Source: Leptodontidium sp. MPI-SDFR-AT-0119 (lineage: Eukaryota > Ascomycota > Leotiomycetes > Helotiales > Leptodontidiaceae). Taken from it: a stretch of DNA of 64,000 nucleotides. Location: positions 806,001 through 870,000 of the forward strand of contig JAHLEZ010000022.1 of NCBI GenBank assembly GCA_020726505.1. The letters are read 5' to 3'. The translations under genes and the position numbers were made by a program. The notes under the pieces are model-generated. The model did no database searches, was not told the origin of the DNA, and saw nothing but the letters and a program-made list of their open reading frames with translations. The stretch's first letter is position 1; the number at the start of each line of letters is the position of its first letter. Shown here piece after piece: positions 1 to 58,341 of the stretch.

Positions 1-441
1 AAATGCTGACACAAGTCGATTCTAAAACTAGGGATTTTCAGAGCGTCAGTGTTGCTGTTATCATTATGTTTCACCATTATTGTTTAGAACGCGAATTCCT
101 GTCTGCCATCTGCATGTCATTACAAAGTTGGGAGGCGATGCTCACGTGATACTCGAATGAACTTGACTTCTTCTTGAATCGAGCTGTTATACTTGTTTTC
201 CAAGACACGATGAGGTACTATACTATCGCAGACTATTAGATCGTACTAACGGTCAGCATATTATCCATATGTATGCGAATCCTCAAACCCTATCCCACCC
301 CGGCTTCACCTCGGACTCATCCCCACATCTCAACCCCACCCCAACCCACAAACTTCGACTTTTTGCAAATTCCTCTGCCCTATACAAAACCAAATAAGCA
401 GAACCAATCATATCAGCAGACATATCAGCAGATAGACAACA
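1..441. other. Intergenic, upstream flank of the tRNA gene
   Basis: No coding region is supported here. A TATA-like TATACA lies at 381-386, about 60 bp upstream of the tRNA 5' end. A 12-bp direct repeat (CATATCAGCAGA) occurs at 409-420 and 421-432, immediately upstream of the tRNA. Short ORFs on both strands lack recognisable content. Confidence 0.6.
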
Positions 442-479
442 TCTTCTGTGGCGCAATTGGCTAGCGCGTTCGACTGTTA

Positions 480-507
480 AAGATCTGGATTCATTCAGTG
501 ATTGCAA
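480..507 (+). other. tRNA intron 1, canonical 37/38 site
   Basis: A 28-nt insertion after the base 3' to anticodon GTT. This is the standard position for eukaryotic nuclear tRNA introns, which are cut by the SEN tRNA-splicing endonuclease. The exact edges can slide by a base because A residues flank both sides. Confidence 0.85.
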
Positions 508-523
508 ATCGAGAGGTTGGAGG

Positions 524-580
524 GTATGTTATCTACAACTTCATTCAAAGCAGTTGAGTTGTTACTAATGACATTAACAG
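524..580 (+). other. Non-canonical T-arm intron in tRNA-Asn, spliceosomal-like
   Basis: The 57-nt insert lies exactly between T-stem base 53 (G523) and T-loop base 54 (T581). It starts GTATGT, contains TACTAATGAC (563-572) as a near-perfect branch site 8-17 nt before the end, and finishes AACAG. These match the mRNA introns of this window (for example GTATGT donors at 7915, 8141 and 18134). Removing it restores GGAGG-TTCGAGC-CCTCC. Whether the spliceosome, the tRNA endonuclease or nothing removes it cannot be told from DNA. Confidence 0.8.
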
Positions 581-615
581 TTCGAGCCCTCCCAGAAGAG
601 TTATTCTTCGTTTCC

Positions 616-628
616 TTTTTGTTTTTTT
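616..628 (+). terminator. Oligo-T RNA polymerase III terminator
   Basis: T5 at 616-620 and T7 at 622-628 lie 16 nt downstream of the tRNA 3' end. Such runs are the usual Pol III stop signal and support Pol III transcription of the upstream tRNA. No T4 run occurs inside the tRNA gene or either intron. Confidence 0.75.
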
Positions 629-13621: not shown

Positions 13622-15399
13622 ATGTTGGCCAGAGCAGCTACCCGTTCGTTGCGAACCCCCGGCTTAAGGACGACGCCGGCAACATACAGGATAGCCTCAT
13701 CAACAGTATGGATTCGGTCGATGGCACGCAACAATCGGCCACCTAATCAAGGGCAAAAGAAACCCACGGATTTCTCGAAGCCGGTGAATGCCCCCGTAGG
13801 ACGACAAGGAGGACCAGCTCCAACATCGAGTCAACAGCCACCCAAGAGCTTCGATAGGAGACCTGACTTCCCAAGGAAGCAACCCGAAGTCGGCAAGGGC
13901 GCTGCAGGAGGAGCAGGAGCTGGAATCTTGAATGCGGCTTCAGGGAAAGGAGAACACAAGGATATCTCAGGGAAGGAAGCAGAGTTCGATACTGGAGCCT
14001 CTGCATCAGAAAACACAGCTTCTCAAGAATCTTCCCCATCTACCATTGATCCCGCAGAACCCAAAGCTCCAAGCCAACCGCTACCGGATCTGACGAGGGG
14101 CATTCCATCTACTCTGGAATTCGAAACTATGGGCAGCACGTCGAAGTCGCCACTGAAGTTCAATTTGACTGAGGCAGAGGAGCCCGAAGCTCCAGGTGGA
14201 GGTGGACGGGGTCGGGGAGAACTCCCGGCATCAGCATATGTCTCCTCATCTGAGAGGAAGCGGTTACGGGTCGCAAATTACATGTACGCCATGTTTGCTG
14301 TCTTGTCAGTGACTGGAACAGTTTTCTTGGGACGAAATTGGGAAACAGAAGAGGAGGAAAAGGCACACCCAGATGCGCCTTCGGGATGGGCAGTGGGATT
14401 GATGTGGAACCGTGCGAAGGCTCGATTGGGAGATCAATTGAACTACTACAACGAGCCAGCTTTCCGAAAGCTTCTACCAGATCCAGATCCAATCTTCGAA
14501 CGCCCATATACCCTGGTGTTGAGTATGGAGGATCTCCTTATTCACAGCGAATGGACAAGAGAGCATGGATGGAGAATGGCAAAGCGACCTGGAGTTGATT
14601 ATTTCCTGCGATACTTGAGTCAATACTACGAGCTGGTCATTTTCACCAGTCAACCTTGGGCAATGGCGGAACCCATTATTCGGAAACTAGATCCTTTCCA
14701 TATCGTCACCTGGCCACTTTTCAGAGAGGCCACCCGCTATGAGAATGGGGAATATATCAAGGTAGATAGCCCTAGCAATATGCAACTGAATTGGACTGAC
14801 ACATGCAGGATCTCGAATATCTCAACCGCGACCTTTCAAAAGTGATCATACTTGACACCAAAGCTGCACATGTCCAGAAACAACCCGAGAATGCCATTGT
14901 CCTCAAGCCATGGGAGGGCAATGTCCAAGATAAGGAACTCGTCTCCTTAATCCCCTTCCTAGAATATATCCACACAATGGCATACTCCGACGTACGGAAA
15001 GCAATCGCCTCCTTTGACGGGCAACATATCCCTACTGAATTTGCCCGCCGCGAAGCCATTGCGAGGAAGAAGTTCCAGGAACAAGTTGAAGAAGAGAAGA
15101 AGAAGCGCCCTAAGCACTCCGGCATGGGATTTTTGGGTAACGCGCTAGGCATCAAGCATCAGAGCATGATGATGGACCCCGCGGACCAGACACCAGCGGA
15201 AGCATTCGCACAAGGCAAGATGTTGCAAGACCAAGCAAGAGAAAGAGGACAGCGGAACTACGAAGCTCTAGAGAAGGAGATCCGAGAGAACGGTGAGAAA
15301 TGGCTGAAGGAGGAAGCGGCGCTCGAGGAGAGAGCTAAGGAGGAAGCGACTAAAGCCATGAAATCAGGTTTCTCAGGCTGGTTCGGCAGCTCGAAATAA
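13622..15399 (+). CDS. tim50: Mitochondrial import inner membrane translocase subunit Tim50
   Basis: Exons 13622-14761 and 14809-15399 (47-nt intron, GTAGAT...CATGCAG) give 576 aa. The start is the ATG at MLARAATRSLRTPG, an Arg-rich amphipathic presequence as expected for mitochondrial targeting. A Pro/Gly/Ser-rich linker follows, then one membrane segment at about 220-236 (YMYAMFAVLSVTGTVFLG). The intermembrane-space FCP1-like domain begins near 296, with a degenerate phosphatase motif (SMEDLL in place of DxDxT), as usual for Tim50, which is a receptor and not an active phosphatase. Conserved blocks include RPGVDYFLRYLSQYYELVIFT and ITWPLFREAT-like sequence ahead of the splice. The C-terminus is Lys/Glu-rich and helical. 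Tim50 receives presequences from TOM and gates TIM23. Confidence 0.95.
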
Positions 15400-43830: not shown

Positions 43831-44660
43831 GGTGGTTACTTCCTGTTTCATTCTTTGAAAGTTCAAGTTCTGGTCTGCATTGCGAAATGGGTGAAAAAGG
43901 ATTGATCTGGAGATTCTGGAGTTTGGCGTTCGGAGGCCGCACATCTTTCGGATAGGGTATTTTGTTTGTGGTTTCTGTAATGTTTGTTCCTCGAGTGCGA
44001 GAGATATCCAGGCGTGCTAGATTAGCAACGGACCGCTGGATCTATGATATGAAAGGAGAAAAAAGACTACAGGACCTTCTGGTAGCTAACTGACTCTTCT
44101 ACAAGACTTACGAATAATGAAACGACGAGTACAAAGAATGATCTATGACTCTTGCTTCCTCTCACTTGCTTCTATAATATATCTCTGGAAGAAAGATAAT
44201 TCTGTGGTTTATTTGATGATACCAGGAACCTCCTACGTGACCAAGTCCAACATACATACCTTCCTCGCTTGAGGTATCCATCTTCTGGCCTGAACATAGA
44301 GATTAAGGCACGTCTCCGGTCTTCAAAATGCAGAAGATATCTCAATTTAGTGGAAATATCTTGTCACTTCCATCCGTATGTATTTAGGTGTGATACTTTA
44401 TTGTTTACTCTCGTCCAGATAGCCAGTCTCCAAACCAGCCCCGGCCAGGCCCTGAAACCCCCGCGATGGGCACTAACCAGCTCGCTAATCTGGAAATCGG
44501 GCGCTAAACTATCCCCCTGCATTAGCCCCTGTTGATGACGTTAACGATCACAGACAGCATCGAAGCTCCATCGCGTCAACTTCATTCCCCAAAACAACAA
44601 TTGGAGTTCTTTCAGTATCTCAACAGTGGAGTTTGACATTTCTTGAACAACTTCCTTTTG
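43831..44660. promoter_or_regulatory. BTB gene 3' flank and photolyase promoter
   Basis: 830 bp between tandem genes. No RNA gene or ORF supported, and no defined light-response element claimed. Confidence 0.4.
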
Positions 44661-46577
44661 ATGTTTACATCTCGACGTCTGACGCCGAGAACGAGAGCCG
44701 TCACTAAACCACTCCACATTGCAATCATCGCGAAAACCCTCAACCTCCCCCCAAAGGTCCTCATCAACAGTTTCACAACCTCCATAAAACACAACATGCC
44801 ACCCAAGAAAGCCAGCACAAACGGGAAGCGCAAAGCCTCACCACCATCCGAGCCTGAACCTAAGAAATCCAAGCTCGGCAATGGTTCCTCGGACCCTTTG
44901 GGAGCACCTCACGAATCCGCCCAAGAAGCAGAAGACAACGGCATAGTCCTCCGCAAATTCTACCCCCACGAAATGTCCAACGCGCGAGCAAAAGCATATA
45001 ACAACGACGAATTACCCCGGCCGATCGAACTCCTCAACGACGCTCTCGCGGAGACGAAAGCGGAACGTGAGAATGTAGAGGTCAAGGATGCCGTTGTGCA
45101 TTGGTTCAAGTGCGATTTGCGCACGAAGGATAATAAGAGTCTGCATCTAGCGAGTGAGAAAGCGAGGGAGAAGGGGGTGTCGCTTATTGCGATTTACATC
45201 GTCAGTCCGCAGGATTTCGAGGCGCATTTGACGGCTCCTGTGAGGGTGGATTTCATTCTGCGGACGCTGGAGGTTTTGAAGGGGGATTTGGCGAAGCTGG
45301 ATATCCCGCTGTATGTAGAGACCGTGGAGAAGAGGAAGGATGTACAAGGGAGGATTTTGGAGTTGTTGGAGGAGTGGGGTGCCAGTCATTTATTTGCGAA
45401 CGTGGAGTATGAGGTTGATGAGTTGAGGCGGGAGGCGAGGATGGTGAGGGCTTGTTTGGAGAAGGGTGTTGCCATGGATGTTGTGTCTGATACTTGTGTG
45501 GTCAGTCCTGGAGAACTGTCTAGTGGAACTGGAAAGCAGTACTCGGTCTATACGCCCTGGTTCCGAGCTTGGGTGGCGTATATTGATAAAGATCCCAAGG
45601 TCCTGGATCTATTCGATGTGCCTGGCAAGAATCCTGGAAGCGCGAGGGAGAAATTCGAAAGGCTTTTTGAGAGCCCAATTCCCGATGCACCTTCCAACAA
45701 GAAGTTAACGGATGAAGAGAAGAAGAGGTTCAGATCAATGTGGCCGGCAGGCGAAGCAGAAGCTCACGAGAGATTGGCAAAGTTCTGCGACGACCGAATT
45801 GCAAAGTACGGAGACAAGCGGAATTTCCCAGCGCAAGGAGCAACATCTTCACTCAGCGTCCACTTCGCCAGCGGGACACTGAGTGCTAGAACTGCAATCC
45901 GCACAGCACGGGACTACAACACGACGAAGAAACTCGACGGCGGGAACAGCGGCATCCAGACCTGGATCAGCGAAGTAGCCTGGCGAGATTTCTACAAGCA
46001 CGTCCTTGCACACTGGCCATACGTGTGCATGAACAAACCTTTCAAGCCGGAATACACTAATATCACATGGGAGTACAACCAAGAACACTTCAAAGCTTGG
46101 TGCGAAGGCAAAACCGGGTATCCCATCGTCGATGCAGCTATGCGGCAACTGAACCACTGCGGCTACATGCATAACCGATGCCGCATGATCGTCGGATCGT
46201 TCCTGGCCAAACACCTCCTCCTCGACTGGCGCATGGGCGAGCGGTATTTCATGGAACATCTCATTGATGGAGATTTCGCGTCGAATAACGGCGGGTGGGG
46301 GTTCAGTGCCTCGACAGGGGTGGATCCGCAGCCGTATTTCAGGATCTTCAATCCGTTGTTGCAGAGTGAGAAGTTTGATGCTGAGGGCGAGTATATTAGG
46401 AAGTGGGTTAAGGAGTTGGAGGGCGTGAAGGGGAAGGCGATACATGATCCTTATGCGAGGGGTGAGGGGGTGAGGGTGAAGAAGTTGGGGTATCCCGAGA
46501 GGATTGTTGATCATAAGGAGTGTAGGGAGAGGGCGTTGGCTAGGTATAAAGAGGGACTAGGGAGGGATACTGCCTAA
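44661..46577 (+). CDS. phr1: Class I CPD photolyase
   Basis: An intronless frame of 638 aa from the ATG at 44661; an in-frame ATG at 44796 would give 593 aa. The N-terminal photolyase domain starts near DAVVHWFKCDLRTKDNKSL, and the FAD-binding domain includes WISEVAWRDFYKHVL, GYPIVDAAMRQL and MHNRCRMIVGSFLAKHLLLDW. WRMGERYFMEHLIDGDFASN and NGGWGFSASTGVDPQPYFRI follow, diagnostic for fungal class I CPD photolyases. The enzyme uses blue light and reduced FAD to split cyclobutane pyrimidine dimers. The longer start adds an Arg-rich, acid-poor leader (MFTSRRLTPRTRAVTKPL) resembling a mitochondrial presequence, while the shorter start is followed by basic KKAS...KRKASPP and KKSK, resembling nuclear signals. 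Both forms may be made. Confidence 0.95.
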   Translation: MFTSRRLTPRTRAVTKPLHIAIIAKTLNLPPKVLINSFTTSIKHNMPPKKASTNGKRKASPPSEPEPKKSKLGNGSSDPLGAPHESAQEAEDNGIVLRKFYPHEMSNARAKAYNNDELPRPIELLNDALAETKAERENVEVKDAVVHWFKCDLRTKDNKSLHLASEKAREKGVSLIAIYIVSPQDFEAHLTAPVRVDFILRTLEVLKGDLAKLDIPLYVETVEKRKDVQGRILELLEEWGASHLFANVEYEVDELRREARMVRACLEKGVAMDVVSDTCVVSPGELSSGTGKQYSVYTPWFRAWVAYIDKDPKVLDLFDVPGKNPGSAREKFERLFESPIPDAPSNKKLTDEEKKRFRSMWPAGEAEAHERLAKFCDDRIAKYGDKRNFPAQGATSSLSVHFASGTLSARTAIRTARDYNTTKKLDGGNSGIQTWISEVAWRDFYKHVLAHWPYVCMNKPFKPEYTNITWEYNQEHFKAWCEGKTGYPIVDAAMRQLNHCGYMHNRCRMIVGSFLAKHLLLDWRMGERYFMEHLIDGDFASNNGGWGFSASTGVDPQPYFRIFNPLLQSEKFDAEGEYIRKWVKELEGVKGKAIHDPYARGEGVRVKKLGYPERIVDHKECRERALARYKEGLGRDTA

Positions 46578-56032: not shown

Positions 56033-58341
56033 TCATTCGGCCATCGTCGACTCTCGTAAGTTACTAGGTCCCTTGTTGCCCCTCCTCCCAAGCAATGTTG
56101 CATTATCGAGACTCAACTCAAAGTTGCCCTTCCTCTGACGTACTTGTTGCTTAGCAGCAGCTGTCACCGCCGCACTGTGCTGACCGTATCCCTTCTGCAC
56201 TGGAGGAGCTCGTGCGGCAGCTGCAGCGTTGAGATTGGTATTTCTCAAACCCTGCTCAACTTGGTGGACGTCAGCGTCACGGGCCTTGGGAACCTTTGAA
56301 GGAATGCCGTTATCTTCTTGGTACTCTTCTTCCTCGTCGAACTCATCGTCATCGATAGGGTTGAGACCGTTCATGGCTGCTGCATTGCGATATCCTGGCT
56401 TGAAGTTCTTGCGGCGCTTACCTTCCTCTTCTTGTCTGTGAACGGCATAGCTGACATCAAAGACTTCGCGGAGATTGACTTGGCCTGGACTACGGAAATC
56501 CATTCGCTTTCCGGCACCAGGTGACTCGAGCAGGGCAGGGTTGATACCTAGTTGTTTTTGGCGTTCAGCAGCTGGGGTGGCGAGAGGCGGTGCGTCATGA
56601 GCAGCATATGTCGGTTCTCGAGTGTTCTTGATCCATGGATGTTCTAGGAATTCCTTGATGGTGTAACGCTTTGCGGGGTCGACGGTCAGGAGGTGAGATA
56701 CAAGATCTTGAGCGGATTTGGAAATATCGTCCCACCAAGGAGACAAGAAGGTGTACTGGCCTCTGGCAACCTTCTCGGTAAGCACCTGGATACTCTCATC
56801 GTAGAATGGTGGGAATCCACAGAGCAATGTGTAAAGTACACAACCCATAGCCCACATGTCCACACTCTTCGAATATCGCTCGTCCTTTACAATCTCGGGC
56901 GCGGTGTACCCAACAGTTCCACATGGCGTCATTGTTTGGTTGTCCCACACGATCTTGCTAAGACCGAAATCCGCAATCTTGATCTTTCCAATTCCACCAG
57001 CACCAAGGCCTGGAACGAACTCTCCCTCATCAACCTTGTCTTCATCTTCGGGGCCTCTAGGCTTTGGGTTCTTCGTAGGCATATGGGGAATTGGCGAAAA
57101 TAATAAGTTCTCTGGCTTGATATCTCTGTCATGACGTCAGCGAAGGCCAAATAGAGGGGTTTTGGAACCTCGTACCTGTGAACAACACCACACTCCTCAT
57201 GCAGATATTCCAATGCCTGGGCAACCTGAGTAATGACATGTCTGGAAAGGTCCTCGCTGAAGTATGTGAGGCGAACAATCTGGTGAAACAATTCTCCTCC
57301 TGGGGCCAATTCTAGTACGATGTAGTAGTACTGCTTCGATTCCGAAAAGTCGACGAGCTTCACGATGTTAGGATGATCTAGCTGGCGCATGATCTGAACC
57401 TCCTTCAGGATATTCGCTCTCTGCAATTCACATATTAGTGTCGGTCCTGGATAGAACAAACAGAGGCCAGAGGCCAGTCAAAATTAAAAAGTTTGCGCAC
57501 CTCCACAGTCTTGGGTTGCTTCTTGAAGTCCGGATGGAGGTGAGCTTCTCCCTAGAACGCCACACATGTTGGCATAAATTCCAAAAGAAGACGGACGAGC
57601 AAAAGAAGAAACCTGTTGCAGTTCCTACTTACCTGGCCAGAGTTCATCTCAAACTTGCGGACGACCTTGATAGCGACCTCTCCGGCGTTCCCCTCTAAAT
57701 CGCATGCTCTGTAGACATTGCTGAAGGCGCCGTCGCCCATCTTCTCGATGAGCTGCCATCGTTGCAGGTCGGGATATCTGGGCAGTTTTCCTTTGCTCTC
57801 GTTCTCTTCCGCGACGATCCGAGCCAACTCGTCGTGATCTACCTTCTTGCTCTTCTTCTGCTTCTGTTCGGCCGCATGTGCGGCGACGTTGCCTGCCTGG
57901 GCCCCGCGATTCCGGTTGTCGAGATCTGCGGTCGAGTATGCGTCGGCGCCGTGTGGGATGTTGTGTTGCTGGTTCATGGTTGGATCACTGTTGGCGTAGT
58001 GGTTATTCGGATGTTGTGGAGGGGCATGTTCTTGGTGACGACTGGTGTGGACGTTGACGGGCGAAACATGGGTGGTTGGGTCGTCTTGAGGTTGTGATGC
58101 TCGGCCGCCCTTTCCTATTGCAGAGATTAGATCATTCCCTGTTCTTGTATCCAAATGACGGTGTTGAGGCAGTGGTAATGGTGATGGTGAGGATTCGGTG
58201 GTTGTGTTGCCCGTGGCGGGGTAGTTGGGAAAGGTAGATAGAGATGAAATGGAATTAAGGAAGAGACTGCAGCGCAACACAGTGCAGATCGTACATACCG
58301 TGACGGATTAAGTTCTTGATGGACTGCGAGATACTCGACAT
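56033..58341 (-). CDS. srk1: Ser/Thr protein kinase, Srk1/Rck2 (CaMK-like) type
   Basis: Five exons (58341-58299, 58114-57633, 57551-57501, 57420-57176, 57125-56033) give 637 aa. The kinase domain runs from about 136 to 425: glycine loop GDGAFSNV (141-148), Lys164 in VAIKVVRK, HRDIKPENLL (273-282), DFG (326-328) and GTVGYTAPEI (343-352), all intact. About 40 residues rich in acid and Gly lie between HRD and DFG, as seen in the Rck/Srk group. N-terminal Gln/His/Pro-rich and C-terminal tails (NPIDDDEFDEEEEYQEDNG; basic end) resemble MAPK-activated kinases. Yeast Rck2 and fission yeast Srk1 are targets of the Hog1/Sty1 stress MAPK; that role is inferred here. Exon 3 is only 51 nt. Its promoter is full of pentanucleotide repeats. 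Confidence 0.93.

Follow-up and report, generated by a model that had tools for sequence, protein, structure and literature searches.

By the textbook view, nuclear tRNA introns belong to the SEN endonuclease and the spliceosome belongs to Pol II transcripts; the known eukaryotic nuclear tRNA introns lie mainly at position 37/38 and are cut by SEN. Near the start of a 64,000-nt stretch of the genome of Leptodontidium sp. MPI-SDFR-AT-0119 (the whole stretch is hereafter called the window), a tRNA-Asn(GUU) gene at 442–600 can be read as three exons separated by two inserts, the second of which lies in the T arm. Based on this arrangement, we asked whether the second insert is an intron of the mRNA type, whether the gene is a working one, and by which route its transcript would become a tRNA.

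A tRNA-Asn gene with two inserts

A sequence-only reading had placed the second insert of this gene exactly at 53/54, and the placement proved exact to the base. When 524–580 was excised, ARAGORN returned a fully paired 74-base tRNA-Asn(gtt) cloverleaf with a 28-nt anticodon-loop intron; when 524–580 was retained, it returned no tRNA for this copy, and with default settings it reported zero tRNAs in the whole window. The Rfam tRNA model matched 442–600 from end to end with 31.5 bits (gathering score 29), the sole match in the window above the gathering score. The junction of the second insert can be slid by one base, as exon 2 and the insert each end in G, and GT-AG ends are obtained solely at 524–580. 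The opening GTATGT, the branch-like TACTAAT and the closing AACAG (576–580) were all read in the insert as had been described. The features of the gene and of its flanks are collected in Table 1, in which the A and B boxes were assigned by their consensus.

Table 1. The tRNA-Asn(GUU) gene of the window with its inserts and its putative processing and transcription signals
Feature	Position	Strand	Basis
Probable Pol III upstream element, AAATAAG, 50 nt upstream of the gene	392..398	+	Common to many tRNA genes
Exon 1: acceptor 5' strand, D arm, anticodon arm through A37	442..479	+	Sequence, ARAGORN, Rfam
A box, TGGCGCAATTGG	449..460	+	Motif match, gene position 8
Canonical tRNA intron, 28 nt, site 37/38	480..507	+	ARAGORN once 524–580 is excised
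Exon 2: anticodon-stem 3' strand, variable loop, T-stem 5' strand (through G53)	508..523	+	Sequence, ARAGORN
Second insert, mRNA-type GT-AG intron, 57 nt, site 53/54	524..580	+	Sequence, shuffles, same site in two further tRNA-Asn genes
5' splice site, GTATGT	524..529	+	Sequence; identical hexamer opens a mapped kinase-gene mRNA intron in the window
Branch-site-like TACTAAT, predicted branch A at 568	563..569	+	Sequence; CTAAT 13 nt from the end, against 10–15 in mRNA introns
3' splice site AG, which also supplies the opening dinucleotide of the rebuilt B box	579..580	+	Sequence
B box, AGTTCGAGCCC, formed by the last two bases of the intron and exon 3	579..589	+	Motif match, gene position 138
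Exon 3: T loop, T-stem 3' strand, acceptor 3' strand, discriminator G	581..600	+	Sequence, ARAGORN
Pol III terminators: T5 and T7 runs, 16 and 22 nt beyond the gene	616..628	+	Sequence

Interrupted tRNA genes across the genome

The genome assembly comprises 77 Mb in 69 contigs, and the copy in the window is referred to below as the C15 gene. A homology search with this gene identified two more tRNA-Asn genes, at C12:911075-911216 and C67:1671793-1671926, and all three carry the 37/38 intron plus the insert at 53/54. We then looked for an uninterrupted copy. Allowing three mismatches at most, an 18-mer taken from the anticodon arm matched 55 places in the genome in comparison to 65 for its reversed control; the exact places were the three known Asn genes only, there were none with one mismatch and a single one with two. 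Thirty of the 55 places were checked for a GTTCRANY B box within the next 260 nt (the three exact places and 27 of the 52 weaker ones, including the lone two-mismatch place; the other 25 have three mismatches), and only the three known Asn genes had one. Among the three-mismatch matches TAGCCAGTTCGACTATTA and TAGCTAGTTCGACTATTA recur repeatedly across the genome (e.g., in L037, L042 and L046), which is probably a dispersed repeat. Gapped patterns written for an insert-free Asn T arm (CTGTTA, 13–43 or 44–74 bases, GTTCRANYCC) matched at chance level, with 7 matches against 32 in the control and 13 against 21, respectively. One of these 20 matches, on C27, was examined with its surroundings and is not a tRNA; the remainder were assessed from the matched letters, and the match at C7:1048217 resembles a tRNA-Glu of this genome. 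Thus, the homology, 18-mer and gapped-pattern searches found no uninterrupted tRNA-Asn gene in the genome. The interrupted Asn T arm also had no match in prokaryote genome contigs and viral contigs, a search that is uninformative on fungi.

The tRNA-Asn genes are not alone in this respect. Our searches revealed at least ten interrupted tRNA genes of four isotypes, namely three for Asn, four for Thr(AGU), one for Ala(AGC) and two for Arg(UCG), and the recurrence of the insert at the same site in all three Asn genes and across these isotypes supports the spliceosomal-type interpretation that the sequence-only reading had given to a single gene. For tRNA-Thr(AGU), an insert at 53/54 is present in all four genes found (C1:6399841, C45:3249022, C56:10762 and C56:312743). 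A 63-nt query of joined Thr exons recovered exactly these four genes, through 36–43 nt of the 5' half at 97–100% identity, and every match stopped at the 53/54 junction; no contiguous tRNA-Thr(AGU) gene was found in the genome by this query. The tRNA-Ala(AGC) gene in the C23:92238 region (L118) has an insert at 53/54 beside a 37/38 intron, and two tRNA-Arg(UCG) genes have a 59-nt insert at 47/48, again besides a 37/38 intron. Because their upstream flanks are nearly identical, the two interrupted Arg genes count as one recent duplication; three uninterrupted Arg(UCG) genes of different sequence are present in the genome. The second inserts are therefore found at 53/54 or 47/48, off the canonical SEN-type position 37/38 that the first inserts do occupy.

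The way in which these genes were recovered bears on how their splice signals are to be read. Patterns demanding GT..AG-like ends before a B box, plus one match from a B-box census, led us to the Ala and Thr genes, and the patterns behind the Thr genes made no demand for a branch motif; the Asn genes were found by homology and the Arg genes by Rfam, in both cases with no demand for splice signals. The splice-like-insert pattern gave 15 matches in the genome in comparison to 12 in its control; the Asn, Thr and Ala genes account for eight of the genomic matches, and the remaining seven were taken as chance from their matched letters.

With the inserts excised, ARAGORN produced complete cloverleaves for the three Asn genes, the Ala gene and Arg_C1. 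For Arg_C23 it drew full acceptor and T stems but recognised no clean anticodon loop, and Thr_C45 with its exons joined yielded no tRNA by ARAGORN. The Thr copies look partly degenerate, and their structure is less clear than that of the Asn genes: the two copies with a 3' exon that could be read both show a C-U mismatch in the T stem, and the acceptor 5' strand is unread or unpaired. When the Rfam model was applied to seven of the loci, it gave nothing for the C12 Asn gene (L030) and L143, a partial match for L144 and 26 bits (below 29) for Ala; the C12 Asn gene forms a perfect ARAGORN cloverleaf after removal of its insert, yet has no Rfam match. The genome-wide Rfam tRNA search scored 63 of 2877 candidates, and the tRNA census is accordingly incomplete.

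Two of the Thr copies contain an extra insert of 33–34 nt in the D loop (in the stretches 1–42 of L143, on C1, and 1–38 of L145, on C56), which reads GTGATAGAG..(C/T)ACTAAC..TAG and has near-repeats of the D arm on its flanks. The C45 copy (L144) is without this D-loop insert, but has GCTAACAG immediately upstream. A tandem duplication could have given rise to the D-loop insert as a very short intron.

Splice signals, exon conservation and Pol III signals

All ten inserts are 50–59 nt long, start with GTANG(C/T), end with AG and contain CTNAY 11–14 nt before the end. The branch motif is CTAAY in six of them, in agreement with the strict form CTRAY, and CTCAT in the four Thr inserts. We scored the whole signature (GTRNGY start, CTNAY and AG end) at fixed boundaries on shuffled inserts. 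One in 100,000 shuffles of the window insert carried it, 0 to 8 per 100,000 passed across the ten inserts, and random fixed stretches of the window passed in 7 of 383,680 cases. As a free-floating signature, GTRNGY..CTRAY..YAG was not enriched in the window (26 found versus a surrogate mean of 35), and the argument therefore draws its weight from the boundaries, the paralogues and the tRNA that is restored. A chance origin of the signature was rejected on the fixed-boundary test together with the recurrence.

To compare the inserts with mRNA introns of the same genome, five introns were mapped by aligning homologous proteins to the window: one in TIM50 (13622–15396; 92% identical to Rhexocercosporidium sp.) and four in a Srk1/Rck2-like kinase gene (56036–58341; 99% identical to Cadophora sp. 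M221). A photolyase gene (44637–46574; 99% identical to Leptodontidium sp. 2 PMI_412 and 94% to Cadophora sp. M221) is intron-free within its homologue match. These protein identities place the genome among the helotialean ascomycetes, close to Leptodontidium and Cadophora. Introns called de novo from codon usage were too few and unconvincing, and the homologue-mapped introns were used instead. Their lengths are 47, 50, 80, 81 and 184 nt, a range into which the inserts fall; they start with GTAGAT, GTACGA, GTGCGC, GTAAGT and GTATGT, all end in YAG, and four of the five have CTNAY 10–15 nt before the end. The resemblance of the window insert to the mRNA introns of this genome, as claimed from the sequence alone, holds on these five. 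By their sequence features, the inserts are thus assigned to the spliceosomal (U2-type) introns. The canonical eukaryotic intron at 37/38, one of which is held by the same Asn, Ala and Arg genes, is without GT-AG or branch-site signals; the second insert has another position and is a separate element.

Alternatively, the T-arm inserts might be introns of the tRNA type, cut by a SEN endonuclease with a relaxed position preference and joined by the ligase, with mRNA-like ends that are coincidental. Cyanidioschyzon merolae and cryptophyte nucleomorphs, the only eukaryotic sources described for such introns in PMC4090602, are reported to carry and to splice out non-canonical introns in the D or T arm, and as in our genes the second intron occurs alongside one at 37/38 (PMC4090602 and PMC9602550). 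Likewise, archaeal non-canonical tRNA introns can share the insertion point 53/54 and the presence of several introns per gene (PMC4090602, PMC4033280 and PMC8450103). The pre-tRNAs considered here would already pass through SEN for their 37/38 intron, and of six second inserts one, that of Asn_C15 after a one-base slide, could form the 4-bp central helix of a bulge-helix-bulge. However, according to the same papers the archaeal introns are removed by EndA at a bulge-helix-bulge, and the red algal and nucleomorph introns are short and linked to that motif and to SEN, with 3–24 nt in the Guillardia nucleomorph (PMC4090602), in contrast to the 50–59 nt GT-AG inserts with a branch-site motif found here. 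No bulge-helix-bulge recurs across our copies, in a motif test that discriminates poorly, as none of six canonical introns used as its control was positive. Furthermore, GTANGY, CTNAY and AG are kept in ten inserts that have otherwise diverged to near the shuffled level, and these signals would be useless to SEN. Removal by SEN is on this evidence very unlikely.

Comparison of the Asn copies revealed how differently exons and inserts have evolved. Between the C15 and C67 genes the exons are identical at 74 of 74 positions, whereas the second inserts agree in 25 of 58 aligned columns and the 37/38 introns in 7 of 28; shuffled Thr inserts, as a baseline for insert identity, align at 34% on average. 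The C12 gene has four exon differences, all of them in the acceptor stem and all accounted for by two compensatory pairs (T3-A70 to C3-G70 and T6-A67 to G6-C67). Bases 3 and 6 precede the second insert and bases 67 and 70 follow it; because the compensatory pairs straddle the insert, both exon sides evolve as one folded molecule. Gene conversion could raise the exon identity, but would not create compensatory pairs. The pattern points to purifying selection on the exons across the insert, with both introns drifting while the signals are kept, and would be expected of a working spliced tRNA gene and not of a dead copy.

This comparison bears directly on a second alternative, in which the interrupted copies are in decay, while genuine tRNA-Asn and tRNA-Thr(AGU) genes are absent from the assembly or escaped the searches. 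According to PMC4090602, a eukaryotic tRNA gene with an insertion in the D or T arm usually has many synonymous copies beside it and is regarded as a pseudogene, and the partly degenerate look of the Thr copies would agree with decay. With 69 contigs, an intact gene may sit in an assembly gap, and the coverage of the family search and of the weaker 18-mer places given above (63 of 2877 and 27 of 52) would also leave room for one. On the other hand, dead copies would not keep 74 of 74 exon positions beside diverged inserts, nor compensatory acceptor pairs, nor splice ends. If all found copies of two isoacceptors were dead, this would be lethal, or a gap would be needed at each live gene. Uninterrupted synonymous copies, three of which exist for Arg(UCG), were not found for Asn or Thr(AGU) in the searches described. 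We therefore give this alternative little chance of being correct. The sequence-only reading had itself named intact tRNA-Asn genes elsewhere, or a recent insertion into a dead copy, as results that would speak against it; instead, the searches found no intact tRNA-Asn elsewhere, and the inserts are old and diverged, with conserved splice signals and exons.

The Pol III signals of the interrupted genes are likewise retained. An A box at position 8, a B box and runs of at least four T within 40 nt are present in all six interrupted genes inspected (three Asn, Ala and two Arg), and AAATAAG lies 41–51 nt upstream in five of the six. In the form RAATAAG, this element precedes 5 of 6 interrupted tRNA genes and 21 of 43 others at a distance of up to 80 nt, in comparison to 22 of 1598 (1.4%) 80-nt stretches of the window; in this fungus it probably serves as an upstream element for Pol III. 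The GAATAAG variant was observed in two tRNA genes. An insert at 53/54 splits the B box, and its AG end rebuilds one, AG/TTCGANYCC (the slash marks the junction). Since the B box is rebuilt in this way at 53/54, and since 47/48 lies outside it, the internal Pol III promoter would survive in both cases. The site 53/54 may thus be tolerated, and recurrent, because an intron ending in AG leaves a usable B box there, as an intron at 47/48 leaves the B box intact.

Probable processing route, precedents and related observations

Taken together, these features suggest that the interrupted genes are working Pol III nuclear tRNA genes whose second intron, of U2 type, is removed by the major spliceosome, a reading to which we assign a probability of about 0.82. 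Under this reading, Pol III would yield a precursor of about 150–190 nt, in which U1 and U6 would read GTANGY and U2 would read the CTNAY branch site. The spliceosome would then join G53 to T54 (47 to 48 in tRNA-Arg), and the T arm would fold only after this removal. Subsequently, the SEN endonuclease and the ligase would excise the 37/38 intron of the Asn, Ala and Arg precursors as usual. We infer the removal of the insert, the spliceosome as its agent and the order of the steps from the gene sequences. Some tRNAs on which translation relies would thus probably require the spliceosome in addition to the ordinary tRNA-splicing enzyme.

Recruitment of the spliceosome is normally tied to Pol II and the cap, which would favor a third alternative, splicing of a longer Pol II transcript from which RNase P and RNase Z later free the tRNA, but this is extremely unlikely, as the interrupted genes retain the A box, a rebuilt B box, T-run terminators no more than 40 nt away and the AAATAAG element common to tRNA genes. 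A Pol III RNA with an mRNA-type intron that is spliced, the U6 of fission yeast (PMC10484740), also argues against it. Among the maturation routes that had been offered from the sequence alone, the kept Pol III signals speak more for a Pol III precursor with access to the spliceosome than for a Pol II route.

The mRNA-type intron of this U6 is by analogy the nearest precedent. In Schizosaccharomyces pombe, splicing of the intron precedes the function of U6 (Tani and Ohshima 1989, 1991, as cited in PMC10484740). Both cases would involve a short spliceosomal intron in a structured Pol III RNA that every cell needs. The S. pombe U6 is itself a part of the spliceosome, and its intron, located near the catalytic nucleotides, is thought to have come from reverse splicing (PMC10484740). 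In contrast, the hosts here are tRNAs of several isotypes, the introns occupy two positions, and most of the genes also carry a SEN-type intron. Within open-access full text, which was the scope of the literature search, we encountered no description of a tRNA gene with a spliceosomal intron, and the stem "spliceosom" is absent from the tRNA papers PMC4033280 and PMC8450103. What appears to be new is therefore the combination of a known intron class with a class of host RNA in which we found none described.

It is fairly likely that in this lineage the spliceosome has become an obligatory component of translation. All nuclear tRNA-Asn and tRNA-Thr(AGU) would need the spliceosome before folding, tRNA-Asn would need SEN in addition, and the decoding of AAY and ACC/ACU codons would depend on splicing; introns would have been gained repeatedly at sites that spare the promoter. 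Spliceosome-dependent tRNA genes, if true, break both of the textbook rules given at the outset. They make testable the path of an uncapped Pol III RNA to the spliceosome, the gain of introns in any transcript that meets the spliceosome, and the throttling of translation via splicing. Such genes are overlooked by tRNA gene finders, as the default ARAGORN run on the window illustrates. For some Helotiales, low counts of 50 to 52 tRNAs have been obtained by tRNAscan-SE (PMC11678538), and overlooked interrupted genes might explain these counts in part.

Several further loci deserve mention. A tRNA-like gene of 168 nt (L010; G000:C2:157628-157795, minus strand) has an insert of 90-odd nt that opens with GTATGT just past position 37; the ARAGORN call for the gene is Trp(cca), and a convincing branch site or loop is lacking. 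Two tRNA-Ile(AAU) genes, L080 and L081 (G000:C4:2090532-2090605 and C68:767900-767971), have AAACAGT and TCACAGT as the acceptor 5' strand, which differ from the GATCGCT of the other copies and do not fit their 3' strand. Finally, a U6-like place at G000:C13:138532-138689 (plus strand) spans 158 nt for the full 105-position model with 40.8 bits (gathering score 44), and an intact U6 of 99 nt with 70.9 bits lies at C13:117239-117337 (minus strand). The 158-nt U6-like place may hold an insert of about 55 nt.
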